This document shows, piece by piece, positions 4,214 to 61,775 of a DNA stretch of 64,000 bases; positions within the stretch are counted from its first letter, which is position 1, and every line of letters starts with the position of its first letter. The DNA is from Mesorhabditis belari. Lineage: Eukaryota; Nematoda; Chromadorea; Rhabditida; Rhabditidae. The stretch is from positions 534,001-598,000 of the forward strand of contig CAUEEP010000936.1 of NCBI GenBank assembly GCA_958450365.1, given 5' to 3'. Position numbers and translations under genes: made by a program. A model generated the notes under the pieces. It had not been told where the DNA came from. It searched no databases and saw only the letters and a program-made list of their open reading frames with translations.

Positions 4214-4661
4214 GGTACTTTTCCAATATCGGGGGAGCGGAAAGATTATCGGGGGAGCGAAAGGAAAAACGGGAGAGCAAATTTTGCCCCCTCGAAAAAT
4301 GCATTTCCGGGACTGTATTTTAACTGCAACGTTTTTTTTTCAAACTTTAACGACGATGCGCCTTCTCCAATATTTGTGCGTTCAAGGAATCGACGGCAAT
4401 CGATTATTTCGTCACCAAAGGAGTCATCCAGTCGTGGATTTGCAATTGTGGCGAATCGATGAAAGTCGGCTCAAAGGGAAAAGATCTATTTCGCTAATAT
4501 AAATCTAATCTAAAGGTTGTGAGAATAACGGGTAATTCGCGGATTTTATGGCGGTAGTTTGTATAATATAGGACATATGTAGCGCTGCCAAAATTTGCTC
4601 CCCCGAGTTTCCTTTCGCTCCCCCGATAATCCTTCCGCTCCCCCGATATTGGAAAAGAACC
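4214..4661. mobile_element. fold-back MITE with 8-bp target duplication
   Basis: Terminal inverted repeats of about 55 bp begin GGTACTTTTCCAATATC on the left and GGTTCTTTTCCAATATC on the right (reverse complement). They contain the repeated motif CGGGGGAGCGGAAAG. The element is flanked by the direct repeat AAATGCTG (4206-4213 and 4662-4669). An 8-bp duplication is typical of the hAT superfamily. Neither strand encodes a transposase. Confidence 0.75.
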
Positions 4662-60060: not shown

Positions 60061-60210
60061 GAGACAACGGTAGTTGCAAAGCTTTGCCGAAGAGGTCATA
60101 AGTGAAGCCGGAATTCAACACAAAATCTGCGCTATTGTGTCTGATCGTGGTTTAAATATGGTAATGGATATTGCGACACTGGGATTTAAACAGTCATGAT
60201 TTTTCATGTA
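60061..60210 (+). pseudogene. hAT transposase fragment, copy 2 (interrupted by a LINE)
   Basis: The frame reads FAEEVISEAGIQHKI and CAIVSDRGLNMVMDIATLG. At ...TTTTTCATGTA the LINE starts. The hAT-copy sequence resumes at 61745 (ATGTATTTTAATAAACC), which lines up with CATGTATTTTAAACC of copy 1. Confidence 0.65.
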
Positions 60211-60307
60211 ATAATAATACTTTATTCAAACGATAAAGTGAAAGAAATCATAGAGAAATGCACAGTGATACTTAATCATACAATACATACTGAAATCAAT
60301 AAGCCAA

Positions 60308-60673
60308 TTACTTACGGCAAAGAGCCACTAGATCTAAAGCATCGATACGTTTCTTGAATATGAAAAGCGACTGAATTTCTCGTATGTCGTTTGGGAGCAA
60401 GTTCCATAATCTAGCGGCTCTAACGGGAAATCAATTTGATAAAGAGGCATTGGAAGCAAAGGGAATTTGCAAAAGGAATGAGCCACTTCTGGGCCCTGAC
60501 CGCGGTTTAAATTTTAAAAAGTCTATAAACAAAGGGCTAATCTGTTTACAACGGAGGATTTTGAAAGTTTCGACTAAATCAATGACAAAGTGACGATGCT
60601 GTAAAGTTTTTAGTTCAAAAAAGCAAATCTCTCCTTCAAAATTCAAAAAGATCAAAATTTGATCAAAATTCAT
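60308..60673 (-). pseudogene. LINE ORF2 C-terminal fragment
   Basis: The minus-strand frame reads RHFVIDLVETFKILRC, an in-frame TGA at 60431-60433, then RAARLWNLLPNDIREIQSLF and a stop at 60308. The R-x-ARLWN-x-LP pattern with a following Phe-x-x-K-x-x-x-D is the usual end of CR1/L2-type reverse transcriptase ORFs. Confidence 0.75.
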
Positions 60674-60748
60674 TCAAAATTCATTCAAAATTCAAACAAA
60701 ATTCAAATAAAATCAAATAAAATCAAATAAAATTAAGATAAAAAGACA

Positions 60749-60976
60749 TTAAATTTGTCGATTATTGCTATTGGAGGCTAGACTGTGGGCATTTGTAAGA
60801 TAAACACTAGGTAGGATTGAGGAACAACTAAAATCAGACTTCTTCGGGGAAAATGAGATCATTTGGCGTCGGTTGGGAGCTTGAAACCTTTTTATGCAAC
60901 TTCTTACGAGTTTTTTCGTTTCTTCGTTGAGAAGGATGGGCAAATACATCCTTTGAGTTGCGAAAACTCTTGGCAA
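60749..60976 (-). pseudogene. LINE ORF2 N-terminal fragment
   Basis: Overlaps the 3' end of ORF1 in another frame and contains ILPSVYLTNAHSLASN, the typical first strand of the LINE endonuclease domain (TNAxSL). It stops at 60749, before the rest of the endonuclease. Confidence 0.65.
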
Positions 60977-61694
60977 CTGGTCCGTTCAGGTCTGACATCG
61001 AGTGGGCTTTCTTCAGGTGTGTTCCATTAGGGGAGATGATGACGGCATTTGCCCGTTTTGGTGGTCGACCTCTTGGTTTAGGCAAAGTAACAGGCGGTGG
61101 CTTCGCAATTATATTTAATGGTCTTGTATCCTCTACAACTCCTATAACGGCCATCTCGACGTCCTTTGAGTTCCGAGTTGGAGCAATTTTGAGTTGCTTA
61201 GCTTCTTTAACGGAGTCATCAATAATGCCGATTCCTTTTGGACGAAAAGGATCAGAACGACGAACATTGATTAGACGAGCGTACCAAGGTAAAAGATCTT
61301 TGCGTTGAAGGCGAAAAGAAGACAATAAGTTGGAGGCACCGTGAGAAGAAGCAAAAATCACTTTTATTGGACGAGGATGTTGCAAAGAAAAGATGCCCAT
61401 TCGATAAGATTGAAGAATCGTAGCATCCATTCCATAGCCGGCCAATATTGAGTCCAGAAGGAAGCGATCGGCTGCCCTTCTTAAGTATGGTGACAGAGAG
61501 GAGTGTATATTGGGTTCTGGGAGCCCCTCGACAACTAGATGATAGTCGGAAGAGAGTGTTTTCGCGAAGGCAACGTCCTCCTGGAGAAGTGGCAGCTTGG
61601 TGGGTTCGAGTGGCGGCGACAACGGATGAAACGGATGGCGTACATTCATCAACTTTTTCACCGTCATGTTGGGCATTTTTAACGGCATTTGCAT
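60834..61694 (-). CDS. LINE ORF1 protein (286 aa, intact)
   Basis: Uninterrupted 286-codon frame, rich in basic residues. Residues near 107-137 (RPIKVIFASSHGASNLLSSF) look like the small nucleic-acid-binding fold of nematode LINE ORF1 proteins. An AT-hook-like motif follows (KPRGRPPKRA), and the C-terminus is Lys/Ser-rich. There is no CCHC zinc knuckle. The ATG lies 3 nt after the embedded SL1 sequence, which is where the start codon of a trans-spliced mRNA would be expected. Intact while ORF2 is broken, so the insertion is probably recent or the deletion happened during copying. Confidence 0.72.
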   Translation of the reverse strand: MQMPLKMPNMTVKKLMNVRHPFHPLSPPLEPTKLPLLQEDVAFAKTLSSDYHLVVEGLPEPNIHSSLSPYLRRAADRFLLDSILAGYGMDATILQSYRMGIFSLQHPRPIKVIFASSHGASNLLSSFRLQRKDLLPWYARLINVRRSDPFRPKGIGIIDDSVKEAKQLKIAPTRNSKDVEMAVIGVVEDTRPLNIIAKPPPVTLPKPRGRPPKRANAVIISPNGTHLKKAHSMSDLNGPVAKSFRNSKDVFAHPSQRRNEKTRKKLHKKVSSSQPTPNDLIFPEEV

Positions 61695-61696
61695 AT

Positions 61697-61718
61697 CTCA
61701 AACTTGGGTAATTAAACC
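61697..61718 (-). promoter_or_regulatory. genomic copy of spliced leader SL1 (exact, 22 nt)
   Basis: Reverse complement starts GGTTTAATTACCCAAG and ends TTTGAG, an exact match to nematode SL1. It is followed by ATATGCAAATG (ORF1 start), not by the GTAAC donor of an SL RNA gene. No Sm site or SL RNA stem follows. It is therefore SL1 as found on a mature trans-spliced mRNA. Confidence 0.93.
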
Positions 61719-61775
61719 TCTGTACAAAAAAAAAAAAAAAAAAAATGTATTTTAATAAACCTTTTTTAGCGTAAA

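Follow-up and report, generated by a model that had tools for sequence, protein, structure and literature searches.

SL1 spliced leader as the regular 5' terminus of a group of LINE retrotransposons in the nematode Mesorhabditis belari

NeSL-1 and other LINEs targeted to spliced leader genes combine a LINE with a spliced leader in nematodes, the leader gene being the insertion target. Trans-splicing is the process that puts a mature leader on a message, and a LINE is copied from its own RNA through target-primed reverse transcription. Integrated leaders have been reported for other retroelements. In Brugia malayi, 60 of 120 intrinsic SL1 sequences are located within 1 kb of PAO LTR retrotransposons, and the inference drawn there is that expressed elements received leaders, which then integrated along with them (PMC7181701). 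In flatworms, 597 discarded candidate loci were tied to mobile elements, primarily LTR elements and LINEs, possibly reflecting trans-spliced transcripts (PMC12582326), and loci of mobile elements with partial leaders are mentioned for Schistosoma mansoni, where according to the authors misassembly was not excludable (PMC5832876). Dinoflagellate retrogenes carry DinoSL relicts whose stacked leaders were read as rounds of retroposition (PMC6050394), and the L1Tc/ingi LINEs have a Pr77 promoter and an HDV-like ribozyme (PMC4035085, PMC8190864); all of these are given here as stated in excerpts of the respective papers. A standing question is how the 5' end of a LINE stays complete, capped and translatable from one round of copying to the next.

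Here we describe a nematode LINE group with SL1 as its regular 5' terminus. This arrangement is new, while the integration of SL1 itself has already been published. Among the titles and abstract beginnings of the open-licence literature, no nematode LINE with SL1 as its regular 5' end was found, which does not prove that none has been described. The resemblance to Brugia PAO lies in a nematode SL1 integrated with retroelements and in the inference drawn from it; unlike the LINE described here, however, PAO elements are LTR elements with a different replication route, their SL1 sequences were placed within 1 kb and not shown as a regular 5' terminus, and the excerpts of that account report neither a LINE case nor repeated addition nor a junction series (PMC7181701). 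The flatworm loci were discarded or mentioned in passing, with no element anatomy, boundaries or family-wide 5' ends in the excerpted text, and their leaders, unlike those found here, are not SL1 (PMC12582326, PMC5832876). With the DinoSL retrogenes our elements share the reverse transcription of a trans-spliced mRNA, but those are host genes, whereas here it is the autonomous element itself (PMC6050394). L1Tc/ingi elements have the same need for a defined RNA 5' end, for which they use a promoter and ribozyme, whereas the elements studied here apparently use host trans-splicing. A host leader as 5' terminus provides a visible mark for each integration as well as a record of successive rounds, and the same mark, which prior papers set aside or barely mentioned, can be searched for in the retroelements of other trans-splicing animals.

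The window, which denotes the entire stretch of 64 kb that was analyzed, contains one such LINE copy (Table 1). An earlier note on this DNA had placed an exact 22-nt SL1 directly before ORF1 without an SL RNA donor site behind it, and both observations were borne out: on the minus strand the leader is followed by AT and then by the ATG of ORF1, a gap of 2 nt, and it lacks the GTTA that forms the intron start of this genome's SL RNA loci and follows the leader in most of the SL RNA-like loci of the same genome. ORF1 matched no Pfam family at cut-off and no NCBIfam family, with an AT-hook match remaining below cut-off (E 0.26), and none of 915 candidates from the protein collection reached E <= 0.001. 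A plasmid search with the leader-plus-ORF1 string gave no match. ORF2 is deleted from the window copy and present as whole or broken frames in the sister copies L040-L043. The 3' part is common to L040, L042 and L043 plus more than 30 others among the genomic matches listed, and in the window it contains AATAAAG followed by TTA units.

Table 1. Positions of the window element, its parts and the related leader variant sites
Feature	Position	Strand	Remarks
LINE copy in the window	61744 to 60211	-	5' T19-GTACAGA, leader, ORF1, 3' part
Target-site duplication (putative), ATGTA, 5' side of element	61745..61749	.	
Extra 5' sequence T19-GTACAG-A	61719..61744	-	between target repeat and leader
Exact 22-nt SL1, 5' terminus of the LINE	61697..61718	-	reads GGTTTAATTACCCAAGTTTGAG
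ORF1, 286 aa	60837..61694	-	stop 60834-60836
Low-complexity stretch at internal deletion removing ORF2	60636..60750	-	from comparison with L040-L043
3' part of the LINE	60211..60635	-	end AATAAAGTATTATTA(TTA)
Target-site duplication (putative), ATGTA, 3' side of element	60206..60210	.	
GTTA-tailed SL RNA-like sites with A15G	G000:C551:1318605, C641:111263, C670:218854, C711:2325625	+	

Judged by its sequence, the element in the window belongs to an APE-type LINE and has lost its ORF2; sister L040 supplies the endonuclease (PF14529, 1.2e-06) and the reverse transcriptase (RT; PF00078, 8.8e-29) in a profile search of its ORF2. Hallmarks of LINEs were found in the 3' end TATTATTA common to the window copy, L040, L042 and L043, in 5' truncation, as seen in truncated leaders, and in target-site duplications of 11 bp (L040) and 5 bp (window). 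By name, the protein matches included an RT protein of Meloidogyne enterolobii (32%) and an X-element-like protein (26%). The insertion bounded by ATGTA that had been claimed earlier stood as far as the presence of the repeat is concerned, but a 5-bp repeat alone is weak evidence and T19-GTACAGA intervenes before the leader. Better support comes from L040, in which the 11-bp duplication TATTGCTCATT abuts the altered leader without a gap on the 5' side and follows the (TTA)n tail on the 3' side. At L042 no duplication reached 4 bp, and L043 had none at the boundary, its one 6-bp match lying away from it. The extra T19-GTACAG-A was not present ahead of the leader in the other inspected copies and could be transduced flank from a source locus that escaped trans-splicing. 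By appearance it resembles the end of a nematode outron.

To determine how regular the leader is, we analyzed the other copies of the element in the 207.6-Mb genome. A DNA search with part of ORF1 gave nine places (9/9 candidates scored), five of which were close copies whose 5' ends all coincide with SL1 or lie at most a few bases from it, while the remaining three besides a sixth, 74% identical relative (L036/L044) matched later parts of the query only. Among these the window copy, L042 and the sixth relative carry the exact SL1 at the 5' end, L041 has its last 18 bases, L043 has one change, and the leader of L040 is altered and looks like a partial double leader. The protein search (136 of 142 candidates scored) yielded 122 ORF1 matches including the window copy, 68 of which were N-terminal, defined by a query start of at most 24. 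From these the best 28 by E-value were chosen and 27 inspected, C359:75524 being left out. The leader was present in 26 of the 27 inspected copies, 10 with the exact 22/22 bases and 16 truncated or mutated, and it is the exact leaders in 10/27 copies that carry the argument. In all 26 it stands in the genome at the 5' end of the insert without the SL RNA intron, as expected of retroposed RNA. The single exception, L109, appears to be cut within its UTR. Collapsing three duplicate pairs with the same flank (L098/L099, L097/L100 and L103/L107) left leaders at 23 of 24 insertions.

In the batch L092-L111 (n=20), 19 leaders scored at least 28, the weakest being L102 (28) as well as L104 and L106 (30); the maximum of 4000 shuffles was 26, and opposite strands scored 12-26. 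Setting aside the three duplicate pairs and a 16-bp match that L092 has with L111, the upstream flanks of 29 loci were unrelated, and because they are unrelated the leader can be taken as the 5' boundary of the element. Six UTR families each include a copy with an exact leader, and the 22 nt that follow match at only 5-10 of 22 positions in the 15 pairwise comparisons; the representatives were picked for an exact leader, so their 22/22 identity within it is by choice. None of the 27 flanks ends in AG at the leader. By eye, GT begins 6 of 13 distinct leader-UTR junction types (L092-L111, L040-L044, L064, L080 and L085), like the SL RNA donor. Thus the earlier note's proposal, a LINE mRNA that received the leader by trans-splicing and was then copied back together with it, finds good support in 26/27 ORF1 copies from several divergent families. 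The alignment of 5' ends it had called for placed the leader at the same point in these copies, and the unrelated 5' UTR that it had named as counterevidence was not encountered there; capture of the leader as a one-off by a single copy was rejected on the same grounds.

Neither chance nor an SL RNA gene accounts for the leader in the window. It is the sole match in the window at up to 3 mismatches, with a shuffle expectation of 0.00, and the batch scores given above likewise exceed their shuffle maximum. No Rfam family reached its gathering score in the 64-kb window, although Rfam may miss the SL RNA genes of this genome. An upstream motif scored at least 30 in 20 of 24 distinct SL RNA upstream regions (taken from the first 30 exact-SL1 loci), but was absent from the 27 LINE flanks, which scored at most 17 (shuffle maximum 24), so none of the inspected sites is an SL RNA gene. 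The other objection raised earlier, that the match might belong to an SL RNA gene array, fails on the missing GTTA tail and upstream motif. Insertion within SL RNA genes, as in NeSL-1, was not found at the inspected copies, and the earlier distinction between the two arrangements holds: in the elements described here the leader lies within the insert, and features of an SL RNA-gene target are absent.

Across the genome, exact SL1 occurred 430 times, with 358 occurrences GTTA-tailed and 72 not. By coordinates alone, 20 of these 72 lie in the same orientation as an ORF1 match, their first base 24-157 nt ahead of it, and 18 of the 68 N-terminal matches are preceded by an exact SL1 that lacks GTTA; in the other 50 the leader is truncated, mutated, absent or unread (41/68 being unread). 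The leader variant A15G was found seven times, four times with a GTTA tail as in SL RNA loci (Table 1) and three times at LINE 5' ends, namely in L097/L100, which share one duplicated flank, and in a third copy on C294 known by coordinates only, representing two ORF1 families. Variant T5C was seen in L094 and in one GTTA-tailed copy. Because 358 GTTA-tailed exact leaders exist, these coincidences are not decisive, and the sharing of variants between LINE ends and SL RNA-like loci is only suggestive.

Closer examination of the junctions revealed variation between leader and body. The family C core ATTCGACGGTGAGATG, closely similar among copies, meets the leader through different spacers in L080, L095, L097 and L098. 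In family A, where L043 and the window copy agree at 98.4% over 924 nt, the leader of L043 is joined to CCCAACATG by ACTTT, and 23 other bases take this place in the window copy; the L043 spacer is 18 nt shorter and the shared sequence starts 23 nt further in. Pieces of a second leader were present in four copies (L040, L080, L092 and L104), with the leader plus GTTGTT duplicated in L092. Template slippage could make some of these few double leaders, that of L092 most easily. The earlier view that the leader has become part of the element agrees with its place as a regular 5' terminus, but it is probably not simply inherited: junctions that differ, together with partial double leaders, suggest that it was added repeatedly. 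L041 (reverse complement) also contains an SL1-like palindrome TTACCCAAGTTTTGGGTAA near base 1000, upstream of its leader, and internally an inverted segment (4214-4507), which suggests a rearranged or twin-primed insertion.

Across several families and many insertion places, a mature leader opens the insert at a fixed point, and from this sequence evidence we consider it probable that the SL1-trans-spliced LINE mRNA is the retrotransposing RNA, some copies becoming sources again with the leader re-added. The trans-spliced mRNA would be reverse-transcribed and its leader would integrate with the copy. In copies that serve as sources again, transcription would probably start in flanking host sequence because there is little room between leader and ORF1, and the presumed acceptor would be an AG of the flank or one within or close to the old leader. 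If the leader's own terminal AG were used, the 5' end would come out unchanged, and use of another AG would create a double leader or a new spacer, both of which were observed. Regeneration at the leader's own AG is the weakest step, since the leader end TTTGAG appears to be a poor acceptor compared with the nematode consensus TTTTCAG. More tentatively, a promoterless LINE without its own 5' UTR may ride host read-through transcripts, in which trans-splicing at an AG within or next to the genomic leader would release the element from the host pre-mRNA, cap it and restore the leader in each cycle. Truncated copies such as L043 could be re-armed by a flanking acceptor. The LINE group also suggests that element RNA is made from host transcripts, and if this is true the spliced leader does the job of the 5' ribozymes and promoters of other LINEs.

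Several other origins of the leader were weighed against repeated trans-splicing. Each family might instead have outron-bearing, leaderless source loci whose leader-carrying retrocopies are dead on arrival and never re-leadered. The mostly single leaders, the unrelated flanks of copies that lack an apparent promoter or acceptor of their own, and the small size of the window family with its five close ORF1 copies would all suit such master genes, but the different spacers and junctions among close relatives, together with the partial double leaders, imply that at least some copies served as sources once more. Nor did the 27 N-terminal matches inspected out of 68 include a recognisable source copy with an outron and no leader, and we regard this origin as rather unlikely. 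In the SL RNA genes of Ascaris, the 22-nt SL is said to act as initiator or internal promoter, and the leader could accordingly be inherited DNA kept by selection for such a function. This would be in line with exact-leader copies in six divergent UTR families, with the continuation into GT in 6 of 13 junction types (by eye), as in SL RNA loci, and with the 5' Pr77 promoter of trypanosomatid LINEs, which according to the excerpted report is bound by TBP and SNAP50 (PMC8190864). However, none of the 27 LINE flanks has the upstream motif of SL RNA loci, spacing and sequence between leader and body differ between close relatives, and partial double leaders are not expected from an inherited block, all of which makes selection for an internal promoter improbable.

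Two further origins would draw on SL RNA or its genes directly. L1 switches templates to U6, and a reverse transcriptase jumping from LINE RNA to SL RNA would likewise leave a leader at the 5' end, the GT in 6 of 13 junction types corresponding to the next two bases of the SL RNA. Such jumps are very improbable here, however, as UTR families unrelated to one another are joined directly behind leader base 22 and no inspected LINE copy continues from the leader into GTTAGC, as SL RNA does. An SL RNA gene hit directly or closely missed, in the manner of NeSL-1, would bring SL1 next to the element, as is the case, but the SL RNA tail and upstream motif are missing, the flanks are unrelated and the boundary is at or near leader base 1, which leaves this origin practically no probability for the inspected copies.

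Besides LINEs, reverse transcription of trans-spliced RNA in this genome may extend to host genes. At L079 (G000:C540:2148281+), SL1 is followed by AA and an intron-free, frameshifted reading that we take to be alpha-tubulin-like. L079 is probably a processed pseudogene derived from a trans-spliced mRNA, and it suggests that host SL1 mRNAs are also reverse-transcribed. Six more SL1 sites (L075, L078, L082, L084, L088 and L089) share downstream sequence in sub-groups, namely L075 with L088 as well as L084 with L089 and partly L082, and by eye upstream sequence is shared too. These sites are perhaps LTR elements with a built-in leader like those reported for Brugia PAO. Just before SL1 the sequence is T-rich, sometimes with TTTTTAT or TTATA.
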